From the NCBI RefSeq assembly GCF_949628265.1, contig NC_088790.1, positions 25,548,545 to 25,612,544 of the forward strand: a DNA stretch of 64,000 nt, written 5' to 3'. Every line of letters starts with the position of its first letter. Within the stretch, counting starts at the first letter, position 1. The translations under genes were made by a program, and so were the position numbers. Positions 12,751 to 51,374 of the stretch are shown here, piece after piece. The notes under the pieces were generated by a model. The model worked only from the letters and a program-made list of their open reading frames with translations. It searched no databases and was not told the DNA's origin. Origin of the DNA: Cloeon dipterum (Eukaryota > Arthropoda > Insecta > Ephemeroptera > Baetidae).

Positions 12751-12851
12751 ACGTACTCATTTTTCTCCAGTCACGCAGCACTACTTGCGCGTTGGGACCC
12801 GTTGTGAGCGTTGTTTTGGGAATTTCAGCCAATTTTGGATCAATCAAGAAA

Positions 12852-19712: not shown

Positions 19713-22700
19713 ATGAATTGTATTTCGATTTCATGGATTATCGGCCTGATTTTTGTTTTGGGAGTATATATTTTCTGAAAAATTTTAGTATGGCAGGCTG
19801 ATATAATTATTAGGTGTTTGAAAATCTTGCGAGGATTCCTGGAAAGTCAAAATATTCGAGAATCCGCAAAGGTAATTATTTCACTATTGGATAGAAATCG
19901 AAAATTTTGTAACTTAAGCAATTTTTAAATTTATAAAATCCAGTAGATTTTGGCTTTTTCCTATTGAAAAGGAAATATTAATTTCAGGAAGACGATTTTA
20001 TATAATTAAATGTTGTGGAATTGCGAGGTGCATCCCAAAGCTTAAAGAGAAAAATAGACGTTTGACGGCGGCGAACACTTCCAATAACGCGACCACTCAC
20101 AGCATAACTTCTTCAATAAAAGAGTAATATTACATCTACTGCATAAATTTATTATCTAAAAAGCTAAATATTTAAAAAATTAAATGTTTAATTTACGCTG
20201 AGAAGTGCCAAAAACACGATTTTTTGAACATATTTACTGATCATGATATTTTCAATGTATATTATCAAAAGGGTTGGGTTGGAAGACTTCAAAGAAATTA
20301 TTCATCAGATATCGAATGTGCTTAGCAAAAAAAGCGAAAAGTTGACTTTTTGACCGCAGAAAAATTTCATTCATATATGTTCTTAAAACGTAGTAAAAAA
20401 ACTTGTGAGATAAGAGGCGGCAATCCTGGGAAACAACTCGCTAAAACTTGAAGCAAATTAAATCTTTTTGTGTTATAGGTTATAGTTAATTTTAAATCCT
20501 AAAAGTCTTTATTCTGACGTAGGATATTTTGAACTCATAATTAATTTTTCACCGCTATTATGAGCCGCAATTTTTGTATTAGTAATAAATCGCACTCGTT
20601 TTTATGGTGATATTGATATAAAATATAAGCTAAAATCCTCTTACACAGAATAAATATGCTGACGACTGATCAGGAAACTGTCAATCTTGGCGAAATTGAT
20701 GATGCGCTGACTTCATCCACTTTTAGTAGTAAAAATTTCCTTTTTTCCTTTTTTACTAAAGTGATTTTCACAGAAATCCCTGAGTCCGATGTCGTCACAG
20801 GTTAACAACTGCCTTAATTGTTTTGGTATTTTTAAAATGTAATGTGGGTGTATTTCTTATTGTGCAGACAACAGCATCATATCTACCTCACTCTTTGGTC
20901 AGATTTTAATGTTAATTAGTTTCAACGGAATAAGATAAGAGTAATTTTGCAGATGATACTTTGACCCCGAGCAGCGCAGGTCAATTTGGTTAAATTTTAA
21001 TCATTCCATATCTTCTAACACATTTTTTTCAGAATCAAAAATTCCAGCTGATATATCAGGTCTATTTAGAAAAAATAACATTAAATTTATATATTTGCAT
21101 TGGTTTTTGTAGCAATATTTATTAAGACAAGAAATTAAAATAAACAAAACTCTTTTGAGATAATTTTATTGCACATTTTCTGTCTTAAAACATCTTTATG
21201 CATGCAAAAAATATATAAATTTCAAAAATTGCTATTTCATTGAAACAATTTTCTACAAGCACAAACACCCCTGTTGCGGACTTTTTTACAAGCTCATCAG
21301 GTATAATAAGTTAAATTCCATAACTTAAGCTTCTTCTGCAATCAATACCCCTGGCGGTTTTTCTTAGGTCCAAACGCATGCATTTTGTTTGCATGAATTG
21401 CTTTTTTTGCAGATTCAAGTAGTACCTCAAGCACCCTTAGTCCGGAATTTGACTCAGCTACGTCAGCGGATTCAAAAGCGACACTCACAACATTTGCTGC
21501 TGAAATAAGCATCACGACTCCAGCAACACAAAAACCGTCAACCTTGACATTTTCTAGTACTAGAGCAGAGTCGACGACTGGAGTAGTTGTTACATCAACC
21601 ACTACCATCAAAATAACAACCGTGGCAAATAATGACAAAGTATATATGAATTCAACTAATTAATATTAATTTGTTTGAGAGCTGCTAAAAAGTACCACGC
21701 ATTTATTTAGGGATCGGACCGTGCGTCGCGCACTTGCAATAATAATTTCTAATTAACCAAAATATATATTTCATTTACCTTCATCCAATATATATGTACT
21801 TTCAGCCCTGCAATTCTTCAAGATGTAGCAAACTCCAAGTTCCTCTGGTATAACATTTCAATCAATTTAAAGCTATTATATTTTTATTAAATTTCAAAGA
21901 CCGTGTCAAATACATCAGGAGGTTCACATTTTAACATTAATCTTTTTATACCAATAATTTGACGAGTTTCTGTCGCAGGAAAATTCGTGACGAAAGTTGA
22001 CACTTCATTTTTCCTGATGCCGATCGCCGCAACGCAGTTGCAGGCTGCAAAGAATTGTCTCTCGATGAGCATGACGCTCATTTCTATGATGGACATTACA
22101 AAGTTTGACTTTATTCATAGGCTTATTTCAGGTTTCCTCTATACCTCATTATATTTAAAATATGTAGATAAATTTAAATTGAATTAGATCTAAACATTTC
22201 GGCAATTTGGACCGCTGGTTCGAACGAAGGAAACGGCTCTTGCGACGCGGACGCTTTACTCTCATTTGCCTGGTGCAGGAAAAACGTCGAATTAGATGCA
22301 GCAATCCAGGCAAAAATCACCAAGCCGGTGTCTCTGGTTGAACTTGCTCAAAAGGCGTTGGCACTTTCTATTAAAAAGTCTCTGACTGCACTTCCATCCT
22401 CATCGAAACTTCCGTATTTGTGCGAAGTACGGATTTTTAATTTATAATTTTGATAAAAATCTCATTTTATGTTTCCTCCAGCCAAATGCAGATTTACGCA
22501 AAGACAGTTGTTCCACCTTGAAATGTGTGAAAGACGTAACAAATTGAATATAAGATTATTAAACTGTCGATAATAACAAAAATGAAACGCAGGCTTCGTT
22601 ACTGGATGCATCTGGGAATGTGAAAGGTGATATATATAAATGATTAAATGCTGGGACATGCTCTGTATTTTTCAAGATAATAAAGATGGCGAGAAGTACG

Positions 22701-25700
22701 GTAAATGGACGTCAGCTTGTGGCAAAAACTACTTGTTCACTAAGAAATTAGTAAGTTTAGAAAATAGACTCTGCTAATTTTCTTCAAGGATAATAATATT
22801 GTAGACTCGCACAAATTTACAGCAAGATCTAAAAATTCCATTAAGAATGAATTTTACTTTCCAAATTGATTATAATATTTAAAAATAATTTGTTGACTTT
22901 ACAAAATTAATAAAATTTGAAATGGCTCAAAATCGATCTTCAAAAGAGCAAAATAGACAATGAGTAGACTTTTATCTTAGATAAAAATATTTTTCCCTGC
23001 CAAGTCTTAAAGAGTTACAAAGTGTCCTAGATCCACAAATCTTTCTTTCTCGATTAATGCAGGAAAGCTAAATTTACTTATTGTCACAGGGAACCTGGCA
23101 GCAGAACATGAATTTTTGCTGCAGTTTAGGCCTCAAACCAATTTGGTTAAGGAATTCATCAGACATGCAATGCTTCTCCAATTTAACGAAATCAAACTGG
23201 GCGCTGAATTTGAACTACTGGACGGCGGGACGCGCGATGGGCGCCTGGGGCCGCTGGGCCTGGTGCTCCGGCTCGCAAGCCGTCCCTTTCACCGACGGAA
23301 TTAATTGGGCCAAGGGACAGCCGGATAATTCAAATCCAGAAGATCTTTGCGTCCACATGCAGGTTGATCGAAATGGCACTGGAGTTTTTTTATCGGACAG
23401 AAACTGCAGTCACAAATACGTGATCGCCTGCCAGGTAGTAAAGTCACTTTTATTTATAAAAAATGAAAGAAAAGTGAATCAAATAAAATCCTTAAACAGG
23501 GTGAAGTGCTACCAAAAAATAACAACAACTGCACTAAACCGAAATGTCCAACTGAGTGCAGAAGAAATGTAACATAAATTAATCATTTATAACCATTTAC
23601 TAAATTTTTTAATTGTTAGGAAAATTTTTTTACCAATGAGTCGAAGGTGAAAGGTAAAAACTCATTTAGATTTGACTCAGATGAGGAGGAAACTTAACAC
23701 TTTTCTTAGATTTATTCGCCCATGGTTCTTGGAACTCTATGTGTGGAAAAGAGTATTTATTCTCTACAAAATCTGTATTCATTTTGGCCAATTATTATTT
23801 AATACGGCACAAATTCAATCTGATTTTAAGACCAATTGGCTGGACGCTTGGAAATACTGCTGCTCTGTTGGAATGAAGTTGGCGGCAGTTCATGAATTCG
23901 ATGATTTGAAATGTCTTTCAAAAATGGTCAACAGATATCCTGAAGCATGTAGGCTTAAAAAACTTAAATTTTACCAACGGAGTGCACATATTTCTTTTTA
24001 TTAGTTTATCCCCTTCAAACAAGTCGAGATTTTTGGACTTCTGGAACGAACTCGGAGTGCGCCGGTCCTCATTACTGGTGTTCTGATGTTGAAAAGTTGA
24101 ATTTGGACCGCTTGCCTAACTGGAAAGGCGGCCGTTTGCCTTCCCAGGAGGCCGGAAACTGTATTTTCATCAATCTGTCCAACGTCACTGCGAATGCGTC
24201 AGTGCTGGGAGCTGACGCGTGTTCGGCGCAAAAACAATTCCTCTGCGAGGTTAGCACTTTACAGAAAACCGAACAATAAATTCTGACAGTAATCACAGGT
24301 GCTACAAACTGGAAATAAATCCGTACAAATCAAAAGGGGTTGTCAGGATGTGTGGGACGTTAGTGACCTAGAAATCGAAGAGTATATCATGAACATCTCT
24401 GCGTTGCAATCTCCAATCAAAAGAAATATAATGGTTGGGAAATGTTTAGTTGATATCATACAGAAAAATAAAGTGATTTATCTGATTTTTAATTTAAAAA
24501 ATATAAAAAATTACGCAGGATATTTCATGTTTTATAGTGCTACTTGAGATGCTGCGGAATTCGCGGAGAAGTGGTGAGTATATAAATTAATGATAGATAT
24601 TTATGGTACAAACTTATCATTTTTTTATGGTTATAAATTGTTCGAGGAGAATCAATGCCAATTTTGCTCTAGTGGACGACTAATGATTACACATTAAAGA
24701 CCTCTTTGACGACGTTTCTGAGCACACCAAACGATTCTTGAGGGTCGAATTAGGTGAGGTGGATATTTTTTCCAACCAAAAAGTGCAGCACGACGTGAGA
24801 GCCTAAACATTATGAATGCGAGACCTGCGCATGCGTGAGAGTTAATTTGAGCATTTGCAGAGAGACCGCCTGTACGAATGACTTCTTTGTCAGATCCAGC
24901 CAGGTCTCACGCATGCGCACCTCTCGCATTCATATTGTTTTGGCGGGAAAAAAAGTTCGCACGTCGCGTTTTGGCCGGAAAAATTACATTTTACCTAAAT
25001 CGACCCCCAAGAATCGATTGGTGTGCTCAGAAACTGCGTCAAAGACGAACTTTAATCGTGATTTTATTCTCAATTAATAAAAATCAAATACATACATAGA
25101 AAAAGTGTCAGTTTGGTGATTAAAAACAGGATTTTCTTTATTGCTCGTGGTGTGTTGCCTATAAATATTCATAAACATTTGTATACAGATAAAAAATGGC
25201 CAACTGTTGACTGAACACGTAATTCGAGACTTGGAAGAACTGACTTCTGATGATCCATCCCTGATGCAGTCATCATTTAACGGATACGAAAAATGCTCAT
25301 CAATTTGTACAGAGCAAAATATATGAGTTTTCACGAGTGAAATATTTTGATCTCTTAAAGATGACATCGATGAGTGCAGGATGTATTCAGAAATGTTTTA
25401 CTGCGGCAAGAAAACTGACCCAACCCTAACAATGGCATTGCTGGACTCCAACAAAGAAGGACCAAATGTATGTGAGATATTTTTAGCAAATCACAAAGTT
25501 TGATTCGACTTTGTTGAAAAAGGTCGTGACATCACCAACAGGAGCAATAAACACAAAATACCGAACTTGTTTAGATTTGGCTCCCTGTGTTACTAATGTA
25601 ATTTTAAAATATAATTTCAAGTATGTAGATTTAGTTATAAACACTAATTGACCAATTTTGAAAGGACACGGCTGTTAATGAGTTGCAATCGACTGGAAAA

Positions 25701-26336
25701 TGTATAGAGAAAATGATACAATTTAAAAAAAATGAAGCATTAAATTTTCCAGGGGCTGGAGGAGATTTGTTTCAAACATCAACCGGAAAAACATATTACT
25801 TTAGACGTTCTGTCAAAATGGTACGTTACACACGTGGAGAGTCATTTACATTACCCTCTGCGAGTGTTCAAATAAATGCAATCCAACTCCAATTCTGAGT
25901 ATAAAAATTTAATCTTTTATAGTCATATAGTTTGATGCAAGCTGAATGTTGTAAAATCGGATCGCATATGGCGATATTCACTACCCTTGCAGACTTTAAA
26001 GCGTGGATGGGAACCATGGTGCCGGGTGCGTATTGAAAAATTAGGAAAATTAGATTCTTGTTCAGCAAATTAATTACAAAATTTTCAGTGTTAGGGACAT
26101 CAACTGCTTGGATCGTCATCGGCGCCACGTTTGATAATGGGGACGGAACAGACAGCTGGTGTCTCAATTACGAAAGGCTCCCCTACGGAATATTAAAAGA
26201 CATCAACAGATTTTATCGTTCCCTGCTCAACACACCTAATAGAATCTACTTAAATAAAAATGGCGCAACAATAGCAGGAACTAATGTTACGTCCGTTGGG
26301 GCAGGCCACTTTGTATGTGGCCCTCTGACTTTCTGA
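19713..26336 (+). CDS. CTLD-OBP fusion protein, copy A (30 exons, 1039 aa)
   Basis: Intact by hand splicing; every phase agrees. Exons: 19713-19763, 19814-19871, 19988-20123, 20649-20800, 20868-20897, 20953-20979, 21033-21059, 21413-21639, 21806-21847, 21900-21921, 21979-22131, 22188-22426, 22482-22535, 22593-22626, 22686-22750, 23090-23434, 23500-23568, 23620-23653, 23710-23774, 23831-23948, 24005-24249, 24299-24433, 24538-24573, 25189-25306, 25361-25467, 25523-25597, 25665-25701, 25753-25820, 25923-26025, 26089-26336. Domains: hydrophobic leader 1-17; basic segment with IIKCCGIARCIPK; Thr/Ser-rich stalk 161-236; CTLD1 about 258-388 (ends PYLCE); CTLD2 about 418-554 with QPD at 516-518; CTLD3 about 589-731; OBP domain about 732-863; CTLD4 about 901-1039. 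Leader and stalk suggest secretion or surface display. Ligand unknown; sugar binding by CTLD2 is inferred from QPD. Confidence 0.85.
24694..25055. repeat. TTAA-flanked MITE (R4), copy 1
   Basis: About 354 bases between TTAA tetranucleotides, almost wholly an imperfect inverted repeat: left end AAAGACCTCTTTGACG, right end CGTCAAAGACGAACTTT. Sits in the copy A intron between two OBP exons. Related copies at 36120-36505, 42580-42964 and, more distant, 57047-57410. TTAA targets point to the piggyBac superfamily. Confidence 0.75.
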
Positions 26337-27045
26337 AGAAATGGAAAAAAGATAAATCAAATTCTTCACTCACTTAAATTTAATAACGTGTAATGCTAAT
26401 TGTGTAGATCCTCATTCAGTTTTTCCTAACTTTTTAATCTAACCAGTAGGAATGATCCCTTAAATCGATTTGTAATTAGCCTTTTAGTGTGGCACATGAC
26501 AAAGTGAGCTCAATATATTGTTTCAAACATTTTCTGCTTGTCATTTTTGCATTATTTGTTGGTGTGATTTAAATTAAAATAATATTTTATTGTTTTCCAC
26601 TGTAATGTTTTGAATCATGAGCAATAAACAACAATAATAACAGTCATACTTAATTCAATCTCTTTTATTTTAAGTTTAAAAAGTTGTCTAATGTGGGTAA
26701 TTAGGTTTTAAACAGTACAAACGTTCAATAAAATTCTCTTCAATTGTCTGCTGATATTATCACAATCCTATAATATACACTTTTATTAACTTTAAGTAAT
26801 TTATTCCCATCTGCGGCAATCTCTCATGTGAGCTAAATTGATCTCTGTATAGTTAATTATATTCTTTCAGTGCGCGCGGGTACAGAGGCAGTTTTGCGTG
26901 AATGCGTTGCAGTGCACGGCTCCGCGGCTGATCATGCCTCGCTCCCGTTTACGACACACATAGAATAAACTCAAACATAGTACAAATTTAATGCCATTTA
27001 TTCAGAAAAATAGTAGTTTTGTAATTTTTATACTCTATTTACATT
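26337..27045. other. Copy A 3' region
   Basis: 3' UTR and spacer; its first 350 bases resemble the region after copy B (33008-33330), including GTGTGGCACATG and CTTTTTAATCTAACC. A short GC-rich patch at 26870-26950 is not recognised. Confidence 0.45.
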
Positions 27046-27103
27046 CCTCCGAGTCGAGCAATCAGGCGTCAAACTACCCCCAACTTCTGGCTGCCGTCTT
27101 TAG
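27046..27103 (+). pseudogene. Relic of the ALAS terminal exon
   Basis: From about 27063 it reads QASNYPQLLAAVF where ALAS ends [12 protein letters not shown], and the following bases resemble the ALAS 3' UTR. No other ALAS exon is nearby. It marks the left edge of the segment duplicated from the ALAS-copy A junction to make copy B. Confidence 0.8.
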
Positions 27104-27480: not shown

Positions 27481-30400
27481 ATGAATTCATTTTCATGGGT
27501 TCTGGCACTGATTTTTCTTTCAGTAATTTATTTCTTTAACTTTAATTGGATTTGTTGACTTTTATAATTTATTCAAAGGTTTTTGAAAATCTCGCAAAAG
27601 TCCATAAGATATCGAAATTTGCTATAAGAAACAAAGGTAAGACTTTAAAATACGCTCGATTAAATTTAAAATAAAAGTTTAATATTTAATGTTTAATTTG
27701 TCAAAGTTGATTCTTCATTTTCAGGAAGGCGTATTCATATAATTAAATGTTGCGGAATCGCGAGGTGCATCCCTAAGTTCAAGAAAAGCAGACGTGTGAC
27801 GGCGGCAAACAATTCCTATAATTTGTCCATTGACAACAAATTATCTTCAACTCATGAGTATTCTATTTTTTAAATACATTTAAAGTCATATTGAATAGTT
27901 AAAAATATAAAAAGTCATTCATTTTTTTCGTTCCGTGCGCTGATGACAATCATGAACTTTTTAAATATTAAAATCTTTAAACATTTTATAAATTAATTGC
28001 AATTTATGGGATCAATTTTTAGTATGCTTCTAAGTGAAGTTTAATAACAAAACGTGTTTCGGAAAACAGGGAAAGTGTACTTTGGGGGTCAAAACAATTG
28101 GAAAACTGTTTGGAAAAACACGGAACTATATACATTTTGGATAATTTTCCAATATAGAATTTCTTGTCATTGATCGATGACTTATGGCTTTTATTTTTAC
28201 AGAATCTTGTTGCCGTCAAATCAGGAAAGCGATAATCTTGGCGAAGCCACTAATGATCTTGATGCTCTAACCTCGCCTGAATTAGACATGCCATCCATCC
28301 CAGGTAGACAAAAGTTTTGAGGCGGTGGGGCTTTTTTGAAGTGATTTAATCAGCTCAAGAGCAGATCCTGTTGCTAGCTTATAGGATTACCTTTAATTTT
28401 CTTCTTCAATTTGGGTCAAAACGCGTGCATTTTTTGTCAGCATGAAATTAGAGTATTAATGTTTTTGCAGATTCAAGCACCCTTAGAACGAATTTTGATT
28501 CAGCTACGTTTTTGAATTCAAAAACGACGCTCACAACATTGGCTGAGGAAAGCATCACGACTTCAACAACACAACAATATGCTTCTGAAGGTGCAAACTT
28601 TAATTTCCAAATTGGAGATGATAAAAAATTTCATTTAAAACATTAACACTCAAGCAACTAGCACATCTACCACATCAACCGAGACATTTTCTACTACCGG
28701 AGGGCCGATAACTGAAATAAATTCCACGACTAGAGCAGTTACATCAACAACGACCGTGGCAAATAATGAAAAGGTATGATAAAAAATTAATAAAGCTAAT
28801 TTAAGTGAGCATCGTGCATTCACAGATTGACAAAAATTTATTCACTTTCCCAAGTATTTCTCTTAATAAATTTAAATTCATCTAATTGCAGCCATGCAAT
28901 TCTTCAAGGTGCAGCAAACTCGATGTTCCATCGGTATATTATATTATTAAAAGTTATTTCAAGCTAATATTGTTCATTTAATTAAATTTCACAGAGCAAT
29001 TCTAATTTATCCGGAGGTTTACAATTAAATATAATTTTTTGCGAATATATTACGTAATTTTAAATTACCGCTGCAGGCAAATTCGTCACAAAAGTTGACA
29101 CGTCATTTTTCGTGATGCCGATCACCGCAACGCAGATGCAGGCAGCACAAAATTGCCTCTCTATGAAGATGTCTCTTATCTCGATGCTGGACATTTTGAA
29201 ACTCGATTTCTTGCATAGCCTTATTTCAGGTCTTCCTTTACCCCAATAAATATAAAATATTTAGACATATTTAAATTGAATTAGATCTAAATATTTCGGC
29301 AATTTGGACCGCTGGCTCAAACGAGGGGAACGGCTCTTGCGACGCGGACGCTTTGCTCTCATTTGCTTGGTGCGGGAAAAACGTCGAATTAGATGTGGCC
29401 ATCCAGAAAAAAATCACTACACCGATGTCCGTCGTCGAACTCGCTCAAAAAGCTTTGGCTCTAACAGCGAACAAGACACTAACGGCGCTTCCATCCATCT
29501 CCAAACTACCGTATTTATGCGAAGTTGGGTTTTTAAATAAAATTTTAGCAAAATTTTGAAATGACGTCTTCTCCAGCCTAACGCAGATTTATACAGAGAC
29601 AGTTGCTCCACCTTAAAATGTGTGAAAGACGTAACGAAATCAAAATTTTCAGGTTAATTCTTATTGTATGACATGAAAATGTGGCCCACAGGTCTCACTG
29701 GTGGATGCATCTGGGAACCTGAAAGGTATTATTGTACTGAAAAAATAAATGGAACATATTTTCATACTCAAAACACGAAACAGATAGCGAGAAGTTTGGT
29801 AAATGGACTTCAGATTGTGGCACACACTACTTGTTCTCCAAGAAATTGGTAAATGAAAATTTTTAATTTAAAAATTGCGCCAGTTTTTGCTTTAAAAGCT
29901 TCTGAAGTAAATCTCATAATATTTACCATTTATTTTGAATCAATTTACGTCGCAAAGCCAGTCCGTGCAATGTCTCAAAGTAGATTCCTCCAAATTGTTA
30001 AGAAATTTTTGGATTTTACCTAACAATTAATGTAATTAAAATTGAAATACGCAAGAAAGTCTGTTCGTATTACGTTCAGAAAATTAAAATTGCAATTGAA
30101 TTATGTTAAAACCAAGAAACTTCAGTTTTGTTTCATTTAAGAGGATTAAAATTATCTTAACCAATGCTAACCTAACAACATTTTGAATATTGGCAGTAGA
30201 GTGTGTGTAGCAAACTGTCTCAATGCGAGATTCTCTTCAGTTATTTATTGTTGTTGGTTTTCACAGGGAACGTGGCAGCAGAACATGAATTTTTGCTGCA
30301 GTTTAGGCCTCAAACCCATTTGGTTCAGGAATTCTTCACACATGCAATGCTTCTCTAAATTAACAAAAGCCAACTGGACGCTAAACTGGAACTTTTGGAC

Positions 30401-33007
30401 GGCGGGACGCGCGATGGGCGCCTGGGGCCGCTGGGCTTGGTGCTCCGGCTCGCAAGCCGTCCCTTTCCCCGACGGAATAAATTGGGCCGCGGGACAGCCG
30501 GATAATTCAAATCCAGAAGATCTTTGCGTCCACATGCAGGTTGATCGAAATGGCACTGGAGTCTTTTTAACGGACAGAAACTGCAGTCACAAATACCTGA
30601 TCGCCTGCCAGGTATTCGAGTCGCTTTTATTTAGAGAAAATGCAAGAAAAGAGTGAATCGAATAAAATCCTTTAACAGGGTGAAGTGCTGCCAAAAATTT
30701 CTAACTGCTCTTCACCGAAATGTCCAACTGAGTGCAGGAGAAATGTAAAATAAATTAATAATGTATAGCCATTTACTATTTTTTAATTGTTAATAGGAAA
30801 ACTATTTTACCACTGATTTGAAGCTGCGAGGTAAACGTTCATACATATTTCACTCAGTTGGAAAGTTACTCAAAACTTTTCTTAGATTTATTCACCCATG
30901 GTTCTTGGAACTCTGTGTGTGGAAAGGAGTATTTATTCTCTAAAATATCGGTATGCAATGTGGCAAATTATTATTTTAATACGGCACAAATTTAATCTGA
31001 TTTTAAGACCACTTGGCTTGACGCTTGGAAATACTGCTGCTCTGTTGGAATGAAGTTGGCGGCTGTTCATGAATTCGATGATTTGAAATGTCTTTCGAAA
31101 ATGATCAACAGATATCCAGAAGCATGTGTGCTTAAAAAACTTAAATATTACCCACAGAGTGCACATATTTCTTTTTATTAGTTTATCCCCATCAAACAAA
31201 TCGGGATTTTTGGACTTCTGGAACGAACTCGGACTGCGCCGGTCCTCATTACTGGTGTTCTGATGGTGAAAAATTGAATTTGAACCGCTTGCCCAACTGG
31301 AAAGGCGGCCGTTTGCCTTCCCAGGAGGCCGGAAACTGTATTTTCGTCAATCTGTCCAACGTCACTGTGAATGCGTCAGTGCTGGGAGCTGACGTGTGTT
31401 CGACGCAAAAACAATTCCTCTGCGAGGTTTGCACTTTACAGAAAACCGAACAATAAATTCTGACCGGATTCGCAGGTGCTACAAACAGGAAATAAATCCG
31501 TACAAATCAAAAGGAGTTGTCAGGAAATGTTGGACGTTAGTGACCTAGAAATCGAGGAACACATCATGAACATCTCTGCGCTGCAATCTCCAGTCAAAAG
31601 AAATTTGATGGTGTGATATGTTTTATTAATACATCATACATGAAAAACTATAAAGAAATTTTAAATTAACAAAATAAAAATGTACTATGTTCCAGTGCTA
31701 CATAAGATGCTGCGGGATTCGCGGAGAAGTGGTGAATTTATAGATTTTTAACAAAAAACTAACTAAAAATAAATAATGATTTTATTCCCATTAAATAATA
31801 CTATATTCATAGCACAAAAAGAAACCCAGATTTTTATTCTTGCTCGTGGAGGGTCCCGAATAAAAATTAATACAAGATTTGTATACAGATAAAATATGGC
31901 CAACTGTTGACCGGACACGTAATTCGAAACTTGGAAGAACTGACATTTGATGACCCACCCCTGATGCAATCATCATTTGACGGATACGAAAAATGCTCAT
32001 CAATTTGTATAGAGCAAAATATATAGTTTTCACGAGTGAAATATTTTTATCTTTTAAAGATGACACCGATGAGTGCAGGATGTATTCAGAAATGTTTTAC
32101 TGCGGCAAGAAAACTGATCCAACCCTAACAATGGCATTGCTGGACACCAACAAAGATGGACCAAATGTATGTATGAGATGTTTAGAGCAAATCATAAAAA
32201 GTTTGTTTCGAATTTGTTGAAATAGGTTGTGGCTTCACCAACAGGAGCAATAAACACAAAATACCGAACTTGTTTAGATTTTGGTCCATGCGTTACTGAT
32301 GTAATGTTACAATTTCAAATAGATCTAATGATAAACAATTGACGTTATGTATTTTGAAAGGCTGCGGCTGTAAATGAGTTGCGACTTACTGGAAGATGTA
32401 TAGAAAAATTGTGCAAACTTAAAATGTGGCGTATGTAACACGAATCATAAAAATTTCCAGGGAGTAGAGGAGCAATATATCAAACATCAACTGGAAAAAA
32501 ATATTACTTTAAATTTTCCGGCCCTATGGTACGTTACAAAAACTTAAAAGAGAAACATAAAGTCATACTCTGTGCAAGTGTTTTTTGTACCAAAACTTTT
32601 TCTTTATTAGTTACACAGTGCGATGCACCTTGAATGCTGTAAAATCGGATCGCATTTGGCAATTTTCTCTACCCTGGCGGACTATAGAGCGTGGATGGCA
32701 ACTATGGTGCCGTGTGCGTATTGAAAAATTAGGAAAATTGATTCTTCTTCATCAAAATACTTGAAAATTTTCAGTGTTGACGTCAAGTTCTTGGATCGGC
32801 TTCGGCCCCACGTTTGATAATGGGGACGGAACAGACAGCTGGTGTCTCAATTACGAAAGGCTCCCCAACGGAATATTAACAAACATTAACTCATTCTATC
32901 GCTCCATCAGCTCACCTAATGGAATCTCTTTAAATAAAGTAGGCCCAACAATAGCAGGTGCTAATGCTTTGTTGGGCCACTTTGTATGTGGCCCTCTGAC
33001 TTTCTGA
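27481..33007 (+). CDS. CTLD-OBP fusion protein, copy B (28 exons, 988 aa)
   Basis: Intact by hand splicing. Exons: 27481-27522, 27579-27636, 27725-27857, 28203-28303, 28471-28590, 28655-28773, 28892-28933, 28995-29016, 29077-29229, 29285-29523, 29577-29630, 29692-29725, 29784-29848, 30267-30611, 30679-30744, 30797-30830, 30886-30950, 31008-31125, 31182-31426, 31476-31610, 31696-31731, 31889-32006, 32060-32166, 32226-32300, 32361-32397, 32461-32528, 32611-32713, 32775-33007. Same order as copy A: leader, basic CCG segment, Thr/Ser stalk, CTLD1-3, OBP, CTLD4. It lacks the three 27-30 base exons that copy A has before the stalk, and its stalk is split by an extra intron. CTLD2 keeps QPD. It is the closest paralogue of copy A. 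Confidence 0.85.
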
Positions 33008-34356: not shown

Positions 34357-34572
34357 CCCGGCACGATCAAGAGAGCTGAAATTTAAGGGGTCAAAGGGCG
34401 TGCCATTAGTGCGCTAATCATATTATATATTTCAGTTTAGCTATGTATTGCAGAAATTCGCGACACGCTGTTAAAAAAATATATATGTACATCACCAACT
34501 AGGCCTCAAAGGCCGCTTGATAATAAAGCGATTGTCTCGTTCAAAGGGGACCTTGTGACAGTCAGCATCAGC

Positions 34573-38860: not shown

Positions 38861-41800
38861 ATGAAAATTTCTTCAATCATAATAATTTTGGGCTTAATTT
38901 TCATCTTTGGGGTAACTGTGTTATTAATATTACACATTATTTGAATTAATTTTTTAATTTAGATTAATAATAATTCCGCGATTGCGAAGATGAGAATCAA
39001 GATTATGAGACAAACTAAAAGTAAGTTCCTTAAGGAATAATTCAAAACATGGTAGTTTAAAATTAAAAAAAAAATGCAATGACGAAATTGACGAGTCCAG
39101 GTGCGAAAGCAGTGTCCTTTTTATTTTAAATTTTTTGCATGGAAGTAAATTGTAGAAATTCTTTGCGCCTTTCCGCTAGTGTTAATTATATTTTCACGTG
39201 ACAAACGACTAGTATTTAAATCAGGGCGACAAACTAATTTATCTCTATAATCGTTAATAAAAGTTTCATTATTCAGCGAGGCGTATCTACGTGATAAGGT
39301 GCTGTGGAATTTCACGGTGCATTCCAAAACGCAAAACTGGGGGGACCAAAAACTCGACCGCTTTTGTTAAAGGCACTGTTATTGAAATGTAAGTTAACAT
39401 ACATTTAAATGTGAGGAATCTTTTTAATTGTTGATTTACGTTCCTCAGCAGTGATGCACAATCTAAACTTGTGACTGTCAAGCCTGGAATTCTTGAACCA
39501 ACGCCGATTTTTATTGAATCAGAACTCACAACCACAGGCTAGCAAAATTGCAATTAGATTTTTGTGTTACTCAACTGCAAAATATATAGCAGCTCTTACC
39601 GAACCAGATGGACAACAACCAACAATTTTAGAGACATCAACCCCCAAAGAAACATCTTCCGCGACTTTCACTTCGCTGCTGACTGCACCTGAAATAAAAT
39701 CCGAAAAGCCAGCTGAGACGACATTTACTACTATTGCATCATTCACATCAGTTGAGACATCATCATCAACTCTCACGTCAACGGTCCTTACCCCAACAAC
39801 AACAACTATGGATTTCTTATATTCTCTCTCTCTCCTACTTTTACAGCCTTGTGCACATTCAAGATGTAGCAAACTTCAAATTTCACCAGTATGATATTTT
39901 CCGATATTTTCAAAATAAATGGAAATATTAATTTTATTTCCAGACTGCAGCAAATAAGTCAGAAGGTCAGAAATATTTAAAATTTGTAATTATTTAACTT
40001 CGAACTTGATTCCATAGGGAAAATTATAACAAAGGCAGACAGTTCATTTTTCTTCGTTCCAAATATTGCATCTCAAATGGAAGCCGCGAAAAACTGTCTC
40101 TCGTGGAAAATGACGCTCGTCGCTCTGCAGGACGTTTTGAAACTCAAATTGGTGCAGAACATCATTTCTGGTGTGTTTATTCAGACAAATATTTGTTTCG
40201 TTCTGACACTTCACGCTTAGATTTGGCAATACAAACAATTTGGACGATTGGTTCCAACGAGGGAAACGGCTCTTGCGCTGCAGACAGTTTACTTTCCTTT
40301 GCGTGGTGCGTGAAAAACGATGACATCGACTCACCCGTCCAAGAAAACATCGTCAAGCCAGTGGCTGTTTCTGAACTTGCGCAAAAATCATTGGCTTTCT
40401 CTGCCAACCTGTCACTAACGGCGATTGCGTCCGCGGCTAAATTGCCATATTTGTGCGAGGTGAGTTCGTATATTCTGTAGTTTTATAATTCGCTCAAAAC
40501 CTTCCTCGTCTCCTGAAGCCAAACGCTGACCTTTACAAAGACGTTTGCTCATCAATAAGTTGTGTGAAAGACGTAAAAAAGTGAAAGTTACAATATAGTG
40601 GTATGATTTAAATGTGATATTCTTATAGACATCATTAATAGATTCAAATGGGATTGTGAAAGGTATGGAATGGGTCTCTTGGTTGGATTTATCTCGTTTA
40701 AATAAGATTCACGTTTAAGAGAGCAAAAAATACGGAAAATGGACCGTGGCATGCAGCAAAAATTACCTTTTTTCAAACAGAGTTGTAAGTACTACTCTGA
40801 TGTATGAAATTAGTGCATCGAACCATGTCCCTGGCCTAGATAGCAGCTCTTTTCCCTCATTTTCCATAAATCTTGCAAACGCCTTAGACAGCAGAGAAAA
40901 CTGTGCCGCATTTCAGATTTACGCAGCGAGTGGCATAACTTCTCAGTCAGTGAAGTTGTGCAACCTAGTCTGTTTTCTACTGGAAATTTTCACAATTAAA
41001 TAAACCGCCAGCCGTTTGACTCGCATTGTCTAGGAGTTTCATAGGTCTAAGTTACTTCGCTGCCACTTGGGCCCCTTTTTATCCGCTCGGTGGCATTATT
41101 TGCCCCTAGGATGTGCTTGAGCGTTAGGATTAAAAAATAATTTTAATATAATTCGAATGATGGGCTTAGAGATTATATTGCAATAGTAGCTCTAAAACTA
41201 TATTTCAGTCAATTCCAGCATTTAATTATAATTACTTATTATATTTTTTAAGGGCACGTGGCAGCAGAGCTTGGACTTTTGCTGCAGTTTGGGTCTTCGT
41301 CCCATTTCTTTCAGCTCTGCCTCTGAATTCCAATGCTTTTCAAGTCTCACAAAAGACAACTGGGCGCTGAATTGGAACTACTGGACGGCGGGACGCGCGA
41401 TGGGCGCCTGGGGCCGCTGGGCTTGGTGCTCCGGCTCGCAAGCCGTCCCTTTCACCGACGGAATCAATTGGGCCAAGGGACAGCCAGACAACTCGAATCC
41501 AGAGGACACATGCAGGTCGATCGAAACGGGACCGGAGTCTTTTTAGCGGACAGAAACTGCAGTCACAAATACGTGATTGCGTGTCAGGTTATTTATTTGC
41601 ATTTCATAATCACAAATTTTGACTTTCCTTTCTAGAGCAATGTTGTGCAAAGCAATCCATCGTGCACTGAGCCGACATGCCCGACTAGCTGCCCAAAAAA
41701 TGTAAACTTTCAAATTAAAAAAACTTAATATAACTTAACATAATACGTATAGGACACTTTGTTTGTCAATTCGACGATAGAAGGTTTAAAATTTATTTCA

Positions 41801-44195
41801 TTTTCTCCGCAAGCGAGTACGAGTTTTTTCTTAGATTTGTACATCCATGGTTCTTGGAACTCTGCGTGTGGAAAAGAATATTTATTTTCATCCAAAACTG
41901 TGGGATTTTTTGGCAATGATTTTAGGAGAAGCACTTAAAATCATCATTAACCTTTTAGACAAACTGGCTGGATGCTTGGAACTATTGCTGCTCACTCGGG
42001 ATGAAGCTAGCGAAAATTTCTGATTTTGGGGAAATGAACTGTCTATCCAAGATGGTCAGCAAATATCCAGCAGCAGGTGCCCCTTTTAGAATTTGGCATA
42101 GTTCAGACAAAATAATTAATCCTCAACCGATTTTAGTTTACTCAAAGCAAATGGATCGGGAATTTTGGACTTCAGGGACCAATTTAGGCTGTGCTGGGCC
42201 CCATTATTGGTGTTCGGATGGGGAAAAATTGAATTTGGACGGCTTGCCACACTGGAAAGGCGGCCAATTACCAATGGAGGCGGCCGGAAACTGTATTTTC
42301 ATCTATCTGGCAAACGTCACTGCGAATGCGTCAGTGCTGGGAGCTGACGCATGCTCGGCGCAGAAACAGTTTCTCTGCGAGGTTGGGGCTTTCCAGAATG
42401 ATAAAAATTTACGCGCAGTAATTTTTAATTAGGTTCTTGAAAGTGGAAACAAGTCAGAGCAAATCAGAAAGGGTTGCCAGGAGACTTGGGGAGTTACTGA
42501 TCAAGAAGTAGACAAGCAGATTTTAAACTCCTCTGCCTTAATGGCACCGACTAAAATAAATTTGAAGGTGAATCGTCGTTTAAAGACCGTCTTCGACGAA
42601 ATTTCTGATTACACCAATCGATTCTTCAGGTTCGAATTAGGTCAGTTAGATGTTTTTTCCAACCAAAAAGTGCAGCGCGACGTGCGAACTTTTTTCCCGC
42701 CAAAACAATATCAACGTATACGCGAGAAGTGCGCATGCGTCGGAGTTATCTGGATCTGACAAAGAAGTCATTCATACAGGGCGGTCTCTCTGCAAGTGCT
42801 CAAACCAGCTCTGACGCATGCGCATAAACGTTCATATTGTTTTGGCGGGAAAAAGTTCGCACGTCGCGCTGCACTTTTTGGTTGGAAAAAACATCTAATT
42901 GACCTAATTCGACCCTCAAGAATCGACTGGTGTGCTCAGAAACTTTGTCAAAGATGGTCTTTAAAGAATCGAATAGAAATTAGAGAAATTTAATCCGCAT
43001 TTCAGTGCTACATCAAATGCTGCGGAAAGCGCGGCATAGCGGTAACGTTTTACTGTCGTGGTGAAGTCCATAATGATTAAATCACTCTGCGTAGATCAAA
43101 AGCGGTCAATTGGCCTCGGAGAAAATAATTCGCGATTTGGAAGACCAGACCTTTGATAATCTAAACTTGTTGCAATCTTCATTTGAAGGCTATGGCAAAT
43201 GCTCGGCCATTTGTAAAGAAATATTTTCAAATTTCAGACCTCAATAATTTCCAATTCTCTTTAAGATTATGCTGATGAGTGTCAACTGTATTCTGAGGCA
43301 TTTTTCTGCAGCAAGCAGGCTGATCCAACGTTAACTTTGTCAATTTACAACATGTACAAAAGAGGAGGGACAGTAAGTCTCCGTTTTATTGCAAAAATGA
43401 ACGGCTTCATCAATTAATGGGGTTTCAGGTCGCAGTGTCTCCAACTGGAGTAATCAAAACAAAATGCCGAACCTGTCCGTCATATGCTGCTTGCATTGCT
43501 GATGTAAAATGTTTAGGATTCGAAATAAATTTAAATTAAAAATTAACTTTTCAGCCTGCGGTTGTAAATGAGGTGAAAACCACAGAAAAATGTATCTAAA
43601 CCTTTTTTAATAATTTTAAATTTTGTGTATAAATAATGATTTAAATCAGGGTCCAATGGTTCCGTAATGCAAACGTCAACTGGCAAAAAATACTTCTGGG
43701 TATATGATAACAATGACATTGTATGTATCAAGAAAATATATTACTTCGAAAAAATACTATATTTTTATGTTTTAAATATTAGATAATAATTTAAGATTTA
43801 AAATAGGGAGTTGCTGCGATGCACAGCCAGTGCTGTAAGCTTGGCTCGCACCTGGCAATCTTCGAGACGCTAGCCGACTACCAAGCTTGGATACAAATCC
43901 AACCAGGTAGACTTTCAAAATCTTTCTCCAACAAATCTTAAAGCCAAGTTTCTTTAAAGTGGTACCAAGCTGGATTGCAATCGGACCAACCTTTGACAAC
44001 GGAGACGGCACCGACACTTGGTGTGTCAATTTCGAAAAGGTTCCGGCTGGGCTGCTCAATGACGTTAACAAATTCTATCGCACTTCAAAGACGCAAAATG
44101 CCCTGTACATTAATGTAGATAAAGGCTTAGTACTTGGCATGTCTCCTGATGGACACACCATTTCAAACTTTTTGTGTGGCCCATTACCCTACTGA
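38861..44195 (+). pseudogene. CTLD-OBP fusion gene, copy C (probably disrupted in CTLD2)
   Basis: Very close to copy D and complete in exon order from leader MKISSIIIILGLIFIFG (38861-38911) to CTLD4 (stop at 44195). The CTLD2 exon (from about 41255) has a 10-base deletion near 41510 compared with A, B and D; it removes the conserved LCVH stretch and shifts the frame to a stop near 41546. All later exons are open, including the OBP exons 42433-42567, 43006-43041, 43095-43212 and 43266-43372, so the break is recent. The intron before the stalk exon has a GC donor (ACAG|GCTAGC) where D has GT. An assembly error or a short secreted isoform (stalk plus CTLD1) are alternatives. Confidence 0.65.
42580..42964. 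repeat. TTAA-flanked MITE (R4), copy 3
   Basis: Lies in the copy C intron between the first two OBP exons, bounded by TTAA at 42580-42583 and 42961-42964. Ends AGACCGTCTTCGACG and TTTGTCAAAGATGGTCT. The matching copy D intron (49677-49724) lacks it, which gives an empty-site comparison. Confidence 0.8.
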
Positions 44196-45730: not shown

Positions 45731-48700
45731 ATGAAAATTGCATCAATCATAAAACTTTTGGGCTTAATTTTCATCTGTGGGGTAACTGTGTTTTTTATTA
45801 TATACACTTCAGGTGATGCTATTTTTTTATTTGTAGATTAATGCTAACCTCGCAAATATGAAGATAAGATTCAAGATTGTGAGACAAACTAAAGGTAAGT
45901 TGCTCAAAAGTAATAATTCAAAACACATCAGTAGTAGATTTAATAAAAAATGCAATGACGAGATTGATTGTCTTTTATTTTACACTTTTAGCATGGAAGT
46001 AAATTGTAGAAATTCTTTGCGCCTAATTATTTTTACGTGACAAACTACTAGTACTAAAATCAGGGCGAACGAACTAGTTTTTTTCAGGACTGGGATAGCT
46101 ATATTATATATTAGCCTCAAAATTTTTGTCCTGTGGTATTTAATCTATTTACTGCTGTTATTTTCTAGTTGAATTCATAAAATACAAAATTAATTTTCCT
46201 CTACAATTGTTAATTTAAGTTTAATTATTCAGCGAGGCGTATCCACGTGATAAGGTGCTGTGGAATTTCCCGGTGCATTCCAAAATACAAATCGAGGGGG
46301 ACCACAAACTCGACTGTTCTCAATAAAAGCCCTGTTACCGAAAAGAAAGTTAAAATAACTAAAACGTGTGGAATCTCTTTATTTGAGCCACTTAATTGTT
46401 GATATACGTTCTTCAGCAGTGATGCACAATCTGAACTTGTGACTGACAATCCTGGAATTCTTGAAACAACGCAGGATTTTATTGAATCAGAACTCACAAC
46501 CACAGGTTAGCAAAATTGCAATTAGATTTTTGTGTTACTCAACTGCAAGACATATAGCAGCTTTTACCGAACCAGATGGACAACAACCAACAATTTTAGA
46601 GACATCATCCACCAAACAAACATCTTCCGCGACTTTCACTTCGCTGCTGACTGCACCTGAAATAAAATCCGAAAAGCCAGCTGAGGCGACATTATTTACT
46701 ACTACTGCATCAGTTGAGACACCTTCATCAACTCTCACGTCAACGGTCATTACCACAACAACAACTATTGATTTACAACTGAGGCTTTTACAGCCTTGTG
46801 CACATTCAAGATGTAGCAAACTGCAAATTTTACAGGTTGGAAATTTATTTATAAGACAAAATATTATGTCTGCACATAAAATTTATTTCCAGGCTGCAGC
46901 AAATAAGTCAGAAGGTGAGACAAATTTACAATTTGTAATATTTTAACTCCTAATTTGATTCCAAAGGGAAAATGATCACAAAAGCAGACAGCTCATTTTT
47001 GTTCGTGTCAAATATCGCATCTCAAATGGAAGCTGCGCAAAACTGCCTCTCGTGGAATATGACGCTCGTCGCTCTGCAGGACGTTTTGAAACTCCAATTG
47101 GTGCAGAACATCATTTCTGGTGTGTTTATCCATACAAATAATTACTTAATTGCATAAATTATGAGATTTACGTTTAGTTTTGGCAATACAAACAATTTGG
47201 ACGATTGGTTCCAACGAGGGAAACGGCTCTTGCGCTGCAGACACTTTACTTTCCTTTGCGTGGTGCGTGAAAAACGATGACATCGACTCACCCGTCCAAG
47301 AAAACATCGTCAAGCCAGTGGCTGTTTCTGAACTTGCGCAAAAATCGTTGGCTTTTTCTGCCAACCTGTCACTAACGGCGATTGAGTCCACGGCCAAATT
47401 GCCATATTTGTGCGAGGTGAGCTCGTTTTTCTATGATTATAAAATTCGTTCAAACCCTTCCCCGTCTCTTGAAGCCAAACCCTAACTCTTACAAAGACGT
47501 TAGCTCATCAATGAGCTGTGCGAAAGACGTAAAAAATTGAGTATTACAATAAAGTGGTATAATTAAAATGTGATTATTCTTATAGCCATCATTAATAGAT
47601 TCAAATGGGAATGTAAAAGGTATGGAATGGGTCCCTTGGTTGGATTTATCTCGTTTAAATAAGATTCACGTTTAAGAGAGCAAAAAATACGGAAAATGGA
47701 CCGTGGCGTGCAGCAAAAATTACCTTTTTTCAAATAGAGTTGTAAGTACTACTCTGTAGTGCAAAATTCATGCATGTCGTGTTAGGAATCAATTTTCAAA
47801 TCGCACTCGTCCTTCATTTTCACTAAAACTTGTAATCGCGTTAGACAGCAGGGAAAACTGTGCTGCATTCCAGATTTACGCAGCGGGTGTTATAAGGCCT
47901 CATTGTCAGTCAGTGAAGTTGTTCAACAACTTATTTTTTAAACTAAATAAACCGCCAGCCCCCTTTGGCTCTCAATGCAAAGGCATTTCTGGAAGATTCA
48001 AGGCTATATGGGAGGTGTTTGAGCATTTCGGGGTGCTATTTCTGGATCACCAATGCCAGAGGTGGCAAAAGTTTGATAAAATAAACAACTCAAAATGCTC
48101 AAACATCAAACACCTTTCCGGTGGCTTTAGAGACAAATATCCGGCGTTTTTATATAAAAAAAAACTCAGTGCAGGGAGGCAAAAAGATGCGGCCAAGCTC
48201 TTCCACCGGCCACTCAGACCCCATAGGATGTGCTATGATTAATTTAGCTTTATACAGTGAGCTTCTAAGCGATTATATTGCAATAGCAGCTCTAAAATTC
48301 TATTCAAAATAATTCCAGCTTTTAATTAATCACTCATATTAAGGGCACGTGGCAGCAGAGCTTGGACTTTTGCTGCAGTTTGGGTCTTCGTCCCATTTCT
48401 TTCAGCTCTGCCTCTGAATTCCAATGCTTTTCAACTCTCACAAAAGTCAACTGGGCGCTGAATTGGAACTACTGGACGGCGGGACGCGCGATGGGCGCCT
48501 GGGGCCGCTGGGCTTGGTGCTCCGACTCGAAAGCCGTCCCTTTCACCGACGGAATTAATTGGGCCAACGGACAGCCAGACAACTCGAATCCAGAAGAACT
48601 TTGCGTCCACATGCAGGTTGATCGAAATGGCACCGGAGTCTTTTTAACGGACAGAAACTGCAGTCACAAATACGTGATTGCGTGTCAGGTTATTTATTTG

Positions 48701-51374
48701 CATATTATTATCACAAATTTTGACTTTCCTTCCTAGAGCGATGTTGTGCAAAGCAATTCGTGCACGGAGCCGACATGCCCGACTCGCTGCCTAAAAAATG
48801 TAAACCTATGCATATTTAAATAAAAATAAACATGATTAACTTATTTTGTATATATAGGAAACTTTGTTTGTCAGCTCGACGATACAAGGTTTTAAGTTTA
48901 TTTTATTTTCCGCAAGAAAGTGAATGTCTTTTATTTCTTAGATTTATATATCCATGGTTCCTGGAACACTGCGTGTGGAAAAGAATATTTATTTTCAACA
49001 AAAATTGTGTGAAATTATTTTTAGAGACAATTAAAACTATCATCAACTTTATAGACAAACTGGCTGGATGCTTGGAATTATTGCTGCTCACTCGGGATGA
49101 AGCTTGCGACTATTTCTGATTTTGGGGAAATGAACTGCCTATCCAAAATGGTCAACAAATATCCAGCAGCTGGTTCTTTTTTAGAATTTGACATACTTCA
49201 GACCAAATAATCAATCCTCAACCGATTTTAGTTTATTCAAAGCAAATGGATCGGGAATTTTGGACTTCAGGGACCAATTTAGGCTGTGCTGGGCCCCATT
49301 ATTGGTGTTCGGATGGGGAAAAATTGAATTTGGACGGCTTGCCATATTGGAAAGGCGGCCAGTTGCCAGCGGAGGCGGCCGGAAACTGTATATTCATCTA
49401 TCCGGCAAACGTCACTGCGAATGCCACGGTGCTAGGAGCGGATGCTTGCACGGCGCAAAAACAATTTCTCTGCGAGGTTGCGGCTTTCCAAAAATTAAAA
49501 CTTTACTGGAAATAATTTTTAATGATGGCGGACACACATAGGTTCTTGAAACTGGAAACAAGTCAGAGCAAATCAGAAAGGGTTGCCAGGAGACTTGGGG
49601 AGTTACTGATCAAGAAGTGGACGAGCAGATCTTAAACTCCTCTGCCTTAATGGCACCGACTAAAATAAATTTGAAGGTGTGAATATACGCTGAAGGTATC
49701 GAATAGAAATTCAATCATTTTCAGTGCTACATCAAATGCTGCGGAAAGCGCGGCATAGCGGTAACGTTTTACTGTCGTGGTGAAGTCCATAATGATTAAA
49801 TATTTCTGCATAAGATCAAAAGCGGTCAATTGGCCTCGGAGAAAATAATTCGCGATTTGGAAGACCTTAACTTTGATAATCTAAACTTGTTGCAATCTTC
49901 ATTCGAAGGCTATGGCAAATGCTCGGCCATTTGTAAATAAACATTTTCAAATTTCAGACCTTAATAATTGCCTATATTCTCTTTAAGATTATGCTGATGA
50001 GTGTCAACTGTATGCCGAGGCATTTTTCTGCAGCAAGCAGGCTGATCCAATGTTAACTTTGTCAGTTTACAATATGTATAAAGGAGGAGGGGCAGTACGT
50101 CTCCGTTTAGTTACAAAATTGAACAGTTTTATCAATTAATGAGCATCAGGTCGCAGTGACTCCGACTCGAGAAATCAAAACAAAATACCGCACCTGTCCG
50201 TCATATGCTGCTTGCATTGCTGATGTGAAATGTTTACGATTTTCAAGGAAAATGAAATTAAAAACTGACTTTTTAGCCTTTGGTTGTAAATCAGGTGAAC
50301 ACGACAGGAAAATGTATCTAAAACTTTTAAAATGATTTAAAAATTTGTGTATATAAATAATGATTTAATGCAGGGAGCAATGGTAACGTAATGCAAACGT
50401 CAACTGGCAAAAAATACTACTTTAGACTGCTGGCAAAAAACGAAAACATTGTATGTATCAAGAAAATATTACTGAATGCACCAGTTGTATAAGCCCTTAG
50501 TGTTTGAAGCCGCCAAAAGATAGCGCCACCGTATACTTTCATAATAAATTTAATTTTAAGGCATTTCCGCTACGATTACAGAAAAAATTCTATACCAGCT
50601 TAATATATTTTCTTTTGACGGGCTGAAATCGAAAATCAGTTCAGCCAATCGCCGCAGAAACGTTGGAATAGTTTTTATATTTTAAAAAATAGTTTTTCAC
50701 GATTCTATTTGAACCGATTTTGGTTTTCAGCACGTCAAAAGAAAGCGCATATCATGTTAAGTATGCACAGTGGCTGGATTGAGTCTGAAATCGCAGCGGA
50801 AGTACTTTAAAATTTAATTTATTACAAAATATTCGAAGGCGTCATCTGTTGGTGGCCTAAAACACTAAGGTTTAATACAACTGGTGTATTTCTCAAGATC
50901 AGACAAACTTGAAACCTTTCCTGTTACTAAAAGCCACATTTTCATTATTTAAATTTTTATATTTTAAAATGAGATTTAAAAATAGGGAGTTGCTGCGATG
51001 CACAGCCAGTGCTGTAAGCTTGGCTCGCACCTGGCAATCTTCGAGACGCTAGCCGACTTCCAAGCTTGGATACAAATACAACCAGGTAGACTCTCAAAAT
51101 CTTTCTCCAGCAAATTTCACAGCCAAGTTTCTTCAAAGTGACAGGAAATTGGGCTGTCGTCGGACCAACCTTTGACAACGGAGACGGCACCGACACTTGG
51201 TGTGTCAATTTCGAAAAGGTTCCGGCTGGTCTGCTCAATGACGTTGACATATTCTATCGCAATAGAAAGTCGCAAAACGCCATCTACATTGGTTTAAATA
51301 AAGGCTTTGTACTTGGCAGCGCACCTAATGGTAGCGGCATTTTAACCTTTTTGTGTGGTCCATTGCCCTACTGA
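45731..51374 (+). CDS. CTLD-OBP fusion protein, copy D (26 exons, about 986 aa)
   Basis: Intact by hand splicing. Exons: 45731-45781, 45837-45894, 46233-46365, 46417-46505, 46561-46835, 46893-46914, 46967-47119, 47178-47416, 47475-47528, 47586-47619, 47677-47741, 48344-48688, 48737-48799, 48858-48888, 48942-49006, 49055-49172, 49232-49476, 49542-49676, 49725-49760, 49815-49932, 49988-50094, 50150-50224, 50277-50313, 50374-50450, 50986-51085, 51139-51374. Same domain order as copy A. The stalk and the first Cys linker lie on one exon here because the donor between them is gone. The exon 3 donor seen in copy C is lost; a GT downstream in the right phase is used in this model and is the least sure join. 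CTLD2 keeps QPD. Confidence 0.8.
48005..48125. repeat. Small inverted repeat in a copy D intron
   Basis: GGTGTTTGAGCATTT near 48013 pairs with AAATGCTCAAACATC...CACC near 48093, absent from the same intron of copy C. Perhaps a short MITE; boundaries unsure. Confidence 0.35.
50479..50886. repeat. MITE with about 100-base terminal inverted repeats (R5)
   Basis: 408 bases, ends CACCAGTTGTAT and ATACAACTGGTG, with inverted-repeat similarity over about 100 bases on each side. It sits in the copy D intron between the first two CTLD4 exons and is missing from the copy C intron. No coding frame; target duplication not clear. Confidence 0.75.

Follow-up and report, generated by a model that had tools for sequence, protein, structure and literature searches.

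Tandem mayfly genes with a predicted odorant-binding domain set among C-type-lectin-like domains

Four tandem genes in the window

The stretch of DNA analysed here (hereafter the window: 64,000 nucleotides (nt) of the mayfly Cloeon dipterum, RefSeq assembly GCF_949628265.1, contig NC_088790.1, with positions counted from its first letter) contains four tandem genes (A, B, C and D), all on the + strand, in which an odorant-binding protein (OBP) domain is encoded within a series of C-type-lectin-like domains (CTLDs). Gene models were generated with a purpose-written protein-to-genome spliced aligner, for which the query was first a hand-read copy A and then the database protein closest to each copy (P0002 for A, P0001 for B and P0003 for both C and D; lengths below in amino acids, aa):

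19713..26336, + strand: gene A, CTLD-OBP (model 19713-26333, stop codon 26334-26336; 29 modelled exons, 948 aa; aligned to P0002)
27481..33007, + strand: gene B, CTLD-OBP (model 27481-33004; 28 modelled exons, 988 aa; aligned to P0001)
38861..44195, + strand: gene C, CTLD-OBP with a damaged CTLD2 exon (model 38861-44192; spliced alignment)
45731..51374, + strand: gene D, CTLD-OBP (model 45731-51371; 27 modelled exons, 917 aa; spliced alignment)

The encoded order is the same in A-D, namely a threonine/serine-rich (T/S-rich) stalk, three C-type-lectin-like domains (CTLD1 to CTLD3), the OBP domain and a degenerate fourth CTLD (CTLD4). The CTLD-OBP part reached spliced-alignment scores of 3997 (A), 3223 (B), 2259 (C) and 2311 (D), as compared to 130-209 in five control stretches, of which two lie on the + strand and three cover the - strand. 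Identity between the full model and its closest protein amounted to 82.3% for A (P0002), 87.7% for B (P0001), 82.5% for C (P0003) and 86.5% for D (P0003, over 800 columns), and the OBP domains were 90-93% identical to those of P0001-P0003 where comparable. Gene C, of which the initial annotation had recognised only the downstream exons, turned out to be complete; 10 bases present in D are missing from its CTLD2 exon (after about 41506), and we take either pseudogenisation or a faulty assembly to be the probable cause.

As a separate observation, the difference of ~12-18% in amino acids between P0001-P0003 and the window copies, found between two C. dipterum assemblies, is large if the genes are orthologues, and a cryptic species is a possible cause.

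The layout outside the OBP module, as modelled in A and (for the shortened exon) in C, is:

19713..21439, + strand: A, exons of the N-terminus (hydrophobic by eye), of the basic RRFYIIKCCGIARC segment and of the T/S-rich stalk
21979..22426, + strand: A, CTLD1, two exons (spliced alignment; profile kinship to CTLD3 93%; no Pfam recognition)
23090..23434, + strand: A, CTLD2 exon with QPD motif (spliced alignment, profile comparison)
23831..24249, + strand: A, CTLD3, two exons (PF00059 23.3 bits, cut-off 22.6)
25753..26333, + strand: A, degenerate CTLD4, three exons in the full-length model (spliced alignment, profile comparison; no Pfam match)
41253..41587, + strand: C, CTLD2 exon, 10 bases short by comparison with D

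The OBP module and its lectin-like neighbours

In all four copies the OBP module is made up of four exons of 135, 36, 118 and 107 nt (132 residues), whose lengths are the same in A-D, which are free of stop codons and which are flanked on both sides by phase-0 introns:

24299..24433, + strand: A, OBP exon 1 with C1 (spliced alignment, PF01395)
24538..24573, + strand: A, OBP exon 2 with C2-X3-C3 (spliced alignment, PF01395)
25189..25306, + strand: A, OBP exon 3 with C4 (spliced alignment, PF01395)
25361..25467, or to 25497 in the full-length model, + strand: A, OBP exon 4 with C5-X8-C6 (spliced alignment)
31476..31610, + strand: B, OBP exon 1 (spliced alignment)
31696..31731, + strand: B, OBP exon 2 (spliced alignment)
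31889..32006, + strand: B, OBP exon 3 (spliced alignment)
32060..32166, + strand: B, OBP exon 4 (spliced alignment)
42433..42567, + strand: C, OBP exon 1 (spliced alignment)
43006..43041, + strand: C, OBP exon 2 (spliced alignment)
43095..43212, + strand: C, OBP exon 3 (spliced alignment)
43266..43372, + strand: C, OBP exon 4 (spliced alignment)
49542..49676, + strand: D, OBP exon 1 (spliced alignment)
49725..49760, + strand: D, OBP exon 2 (spliced alignment)
49815..49932, + strand: D, OBP exon 3 (spliced alignment)
49988..50094, + strand: D, OBP exon 4 (spliced alignment)

The linker that follows OBP exon 4 in copy A was modelled differently by the two spliced alignments. OBP exons 2 and 3 are separated by 615 bases of intron in A (24574-25188), more than in B (157), C (53) or D (54).

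All four window copies share the cysteine spacing C1-X30-C2-X3-C3-X42-C4-X8-C5-X8-C6, so that the spacings first counted in A and D stand from C1 to C4 and from C5 to C6, and only the nine residues given between C4 and C5 have to be corrected to eight. Across 31 sequences (a set that omits a paralogue whose OBP exon 4 is disrupted, as well as P0001, P0004, P0009, P0011 and P0013-P0018, whose models are broken or come from the same genome) the six cysteines are invariant over 122 ungapped residues, with C2-X3-C3 and C5-X8-C6 exact. These 31 sequences also have an extra cysteine after C3, which is absent from a divergent member of the family (locus L034; spacing X32-X3-X42-X8-X8).

The Pfam search of the spliced products, which the initial annotation had called for, recovered PF01395 (gathering cut-off 22 bits) in each of the four OBP domains taken alone (A 25.4, B 24.0, C 26.5 and D 26.2 bits). 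In the models of A-D, as first described, a six-cysteine OBP-family domain lies in frame between CTLDs. The first 666 aa of D scored 22.3 bits, seven of ten relatives exceeded the cut-off (maximum 39.0 bits) and a very divergent family member reached 38.7 bits. A profile built from 15 family members matched 25 sequences of the Protein Data Bank (PDB) at E<=1 (six below 1e-3, best 1e-6), of which 22 are named as odorant- or pheromone-binding, one is unrelated and two bear only Anopheles gene names; the latter we take to be OBPs, which would bring the count to 24 of 25. Judged by its sequence (PF01395, six-cysteine pattern and PDB matches), the domain is an OBP domain. The A, B and D models in which it sits measure 917-988 aa, and it is therefore an OBP domain rather than a classic OBP protein in the small stand-alone form (about 120-170 aa). 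That it is some other six-cysteine helical module resembling an OBP appears to us most improbable: the PF01395 scores of the window copies are modest (24.0-26.5 bits), to which have to be opposed the relatives with up to 39 bits, the predominance of OBPs among the PDB matches, and the exact C2-X3-C3 and C5-X8-C6 spacings in the 31 sequences and in the divergent member. Searched against the raw genome, PF01395 gave only four exon matches at E<=10, in our reading because the exons are short; a CTLD3-like match lies just upstream of two of them (C4:31081078 and C4:31178535), and no CTLD match was found near the other two (C3:3625495 and C4:18353268) among the matches listed.

Of the lectin-like domains in copy A, CTLD3 alone was recognised by PF00059 (one stretch, 23.3 bits; gathering cut-off 22.6 bits), with CTLD1, CTLD2 and CTLD4 passing unrecognised in the Pfam scan; the first 666 aa of D stayed below the cut-off (21.7 bits) and eight of ten relatives were at or above it. 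CTLD2 of P0009 matched 34 C-type-lectin-type PDB sequences at E<=0.1 (E-selectin first; langerin and mincle included). The CTLD2 motif W..GQPD...D[RK][NS]C, with QPD and an aspartate ahead of the final cysteines, is conserved in 30 of 33 proteins; by eye, EPN/QPD is absent from CTLD1, CTLD3 and CTLD4. Profiles of the four domains (distinct sequences from the 17, 22, 32 and 26 extracted for CTLD1-4, respectively, from 33 proteins) related CTLD3 to CTLD2 with a probability of 98%, to CTLD1 with 93% and to CTLD4 with 78%, and CTLD4 to CTLD2 with 64% and to CTLD1 with 0.2%. The resemblance of CTLD4 to CTLD3 comes from this comparison only, and the corresponding domain of P0009 had no lectin match in the PDB. 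The family N-termini are hydrophobic (by eye) and continue, after a basic segment, into T/S-rich exons. A basic ..IIKCCG...C segment like that of copy A stands ahead of the stalk in 28 of the 33 N-termini listed.

Copy number and the join between the two parts

By way of the CTLD2 matches of P0011 we identified 20 further paralogues, on contigs C3 (1.43-1.48, 2.36-2.46 and 36.35-36.40 Mb) and C5 (30.15 Mb), all 20 with the OBP in the same place (intact in 19) and 17 with OBP exon lengths of exactly 135/36/118/107. Two OBP queries (one close, one divergent) then gave 105 further OBP-exon loci among the matches listed, a count that omits the 24 modelled copies, eight partial CTLD3 rows, three first-exon rows and two overlapping OBP rows. 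If same-strand exons up to 3.5 kb upstream (CTLD2-like) or up to 2 kb upstream (CTLD3-like) are counted, 96 of these 105 loci are preceded by a lectin-like exon (58 by both; median distances from the OBP exon of 1178 bases for CTLD2-like and 369 bases for CTLD3-like), with the close query contributing 25 of 34 loci and the divergent one 87 of 88, all among the matches listed. The controls were empty, as CTLD-like exons occurred at 0/105 loci downstream and at 0/105 on the opposite strand among the same matches. The remaining 9/105 loci had no CTLD match among those listed. Four evenly spaced OBP-exon matches without an upstream CTLD among the matches listed (G000:C4:29462682-29478370) may represent either an array of stand-alone OBPs or fused genes of a more diverged subfamily; at L001, which was inspected for a stand-alone OBP gene, none was established. 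Altogether the genome holds about 120 CTLD-OBP loci (24 modelled and 96 among the matches listed), the 96 being exon positions and not gene models, some of which may be pseudogenes.

The OBP module evolves under constraint: the ratio of nonsynonymous to synonymous substitution rates (dN/dS) was 0.14-0.37 among the window copies (five pairs computed), with a median of 0.28 and a maximum of 0.73 among 17 paralogues (136 pairs). The module nevertheless changes faster than CTLD2, for which the median was 0.15 (120 pairs from 16 of the 17 paralogues).

In the protein database, scoring of the 7999 candidates with the most shared words left 17 relatives (13 from C. dipterum and four from Neocloeon triangulifer), and precomputed annotation assigns PF00059 as well as PF01395 to 12 of them; the four Neocloeon proteins share the CTLD-OBP architecture. 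The proteome search suggested at the outset thus found proteins with both domains in Cloeon and Neocloeon (both Baetidae), and we hold it practically certain that a large mayfly CTLD-OBP family exists in these two genera. The accompanying claim that such a union of domains was unknown does not hold as stated: predicted OBP + CTLD proteins are already public at NCBI, where they are unnamed. Searches of the open-licence PMC literature turned up no paper describing them.

The strongest evidence that the two parts form one protein comes from L034 (C1:40597001-40599600), because no splicing is needed there: a stop-free frame in the raw DNA (1065-1361) spans the C-terminal half of CTLD3, the residues ...KKKYLCE and the first OBP cysteine. 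The piece of L034 containing the rest of the CTLD3 domain scores 36.1 bits for PF00059. P0001, P0002 and P0003 likewise join CTLD and OBP parts; they are taken to stem from the assembly of PMC7250882, whose gene models are reported to have been built using RNA-seq hints.

A rival reading is that the OBP and CTLD exons are separate adjacent genes, wrongly joined by models, and the initial annotation had named a separate OBP gene as grounds for abandoning the fusion. On paper such a gene does exist for copy B, whose OBP exons RefSeq places in a locus of their own (P0018, 165 aa, the single match each time when OBP domains were queried against the protein database, with 4 and 155 candidates scored). 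P0018 shares two blocks of identical residues (137 and 21 long) with the model of B, starts at an internal methionine after C1 and ends early in the next domain (window 31476-32300); it looks like a truncated model, and P0001 joins both parts. Set against two separate genes are, besides the single open frame across the CTLD3-OBP join in L034, the same order and spacing at 24 modelled copies and at the 96 of 105 loci described above with their empty controls, the agreement of exon phases at the join, the lack of a methionine between the splice acceptor and C1 in all four window copies, and the CTLD-like segment that follows the OBP within the same exon chain. We regard the two-gene reading as very improbable.

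Both this reading and that of a chance arrangement were set aside on the alignment scores relative to controls, the 20/20 paralogues, the locus counts and the L034 frame.

Several results weigh against a large family of fused, lectin-bearing OBPs and deserve to be put together. Apart from the separate RefSeq gene for copy B and the nature of the 96 further loci (exon positions), the two OBP queries were both derived from fused members, and stand-alone OBPs are for that reason under-counted. Whole proteins fell short of the PF01395 cut-off in A (21.2 bits), P0002 (18.5) and P0003 (18.2), and P0001, the closest model of the other assembly to copy B, had no PF01395 match in the scan of relatives and, while joining both parts, skips the 36-nt OBP exon. 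The half of CTLD3 in L034 to which the OBP exons are joined reaches only 14.4 bits for PF00059. As for the lectin side, CTLD2 lacks, by eye, the N of the customary WND motif, and the profile comparison finds no link of CTLD1 to CTLD2 (3%) or to CTLD4 (0.2%). With these points weighed, we consider a fused CTLD-OBP product in the cell very probable.

Automatic annotation of the family appears unreliable (P0018 is partial and P0001 skips an exon). In P0004 a CTLD-OBP-like protein is fused to a BIR domain (PF00653), probably because the model merges two neighbouring genes. Two other genes lie beside the CTLD-OBP copies in the window:

12636-19061, + strand: gene for 5-aminolevulinate synthase, situated upstream of copy A and so named on account of aminotransferase matches (15009-15494, 6e-15; 18765-19058, 20.7 bits, cut-off 19.7), with a presequence-like open reading frame (12636-13109) below its cut-off
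34441-36016, + strand: carboxylesterase gene between B and C (PF00135 up to 61.8 bits)

Possible role and comparison with known systems

Taken together, these observations are best explained by a large mayfly family of secreted multi-domain CTLD-OBP proteins, an explanation that we consider reasonably probable. The protein would consist of a hydrophobic leader, a basic CCG...C segment, a mucin-like T/S-rich stalk, CTLD1-CTLD2-CTLD3, one OBP and a degenerate CTLD4, and would be exported and glycosylated. Its QPD-bearing CTLD2 would bind glycan and hold the protein on mucus, cuticle or a cell surface, and the OBP pocket would bind a small hydrophobic ligand at that wet surface. As anchoring would keep the OBP from washing away in water, the protein could act as a surface ligand catcher, for example on nymphal gills or the head. 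The coupling of glycan recognition to small-ligand binding, proposed at the start, is plausible; the role of an anchored carrier we put forward tentatively, with slightly more doubt than conviction.

The main rival to the anchored carrier is a role in immunity or gut defence, in which the multi-lectin part would bind microbial glycans and the OBP would bind a bacterial lipid or act as a spacer. The multi-CTLD architecture and the large arrays of many paralogues would suit a recognition repertoire, and 'defence response' figures among the Gene Ontology terms of nymphal clusters reported in PMC7250882. A mere spacer, on the other hand, would not need six cysteines kept in 31/31 sequences or purifying selection on the OBP. 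A defensive role seems to us rather doubtful, if far from negligible.

The anchored-carrier proposal bears on an expansion already on record. The main text of Almudi et al. 2020 (PMC7250882) gives 191 OBP genes for C. dipterum, with 82/167 expressed in gills, some of them in clusters of cells that bear a neural marker (HRP-positive); it treats the genes as OBPs, and the word lectin is absent from that text. The species is the same and the OBP genes are very many in both cases; the reported OBPs may largely belong to the CTLD-OBP class. The heptageniid mayfly Parafronurus youi is credited with 10 OBPs of 135-252 aa (PMC13205551, again with no 'lectin' in its main text) and a damselfly with four (PMC5381652), and the contrast of 191 with 10 and 4 may reflect the CTLD-OBP class, in so far as studies with differing methods can be compared. 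It is conceivable, and we say so with reserve, that the record set of OBPs in C. dipterum is made up mainly not of stand-alone carriers but of a new class of glycan-anchored, lectin-fused OBPs, expanded in baetids as an aquatic odorant-binding system of nymphal gills and head. The searches of open-licence PMC literature (including PMC7250882, PMC13205551, PMC6275457, PMC5381652 and PMC8418000, with most subscription papers and all preprints outside its scope) turned up no description of an OBP-CTLD protein. If the interpretation is accurate, a lectin-chain OBP family of ~120 loci in one mayfly would constitute a new architecture, would change the reading of the 191-gene repertoire and would suggest, in testable form, how OBPs may function in open water.

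With classic insect OBPs (PBP/GOBP, PF01395, e.g. LUSH), the mayfly domain shares the six-cysteine pattern and the PF01395 and PDB matches. The usual description of an OBP is that of a small carrier, free and stand-alone, of 120-170 aa, whereas the mayfly OBP is one domain between CTLDs in a protein of ~920-990 aa, and it differs further by the extra cysteine after C3 in 31 mayfly sequences. The serial CTLDs recall the mannose-receptor group and the CTLD2 matches in the PDB (E-selectin and langerin among them) recall the selectins; unlike in these, CTLD1 and CTLD4 of the mayfly proteins are strongly diverged, and we know of no OBP domain in either group. In double-domain OBPs and in the D7 proteins of mosquitoes the OBP fold also lies inside a larger protein, where OBP-like domains are joined to each other, whereas the mayfly proteins join a single OBP to lectin-type domains.

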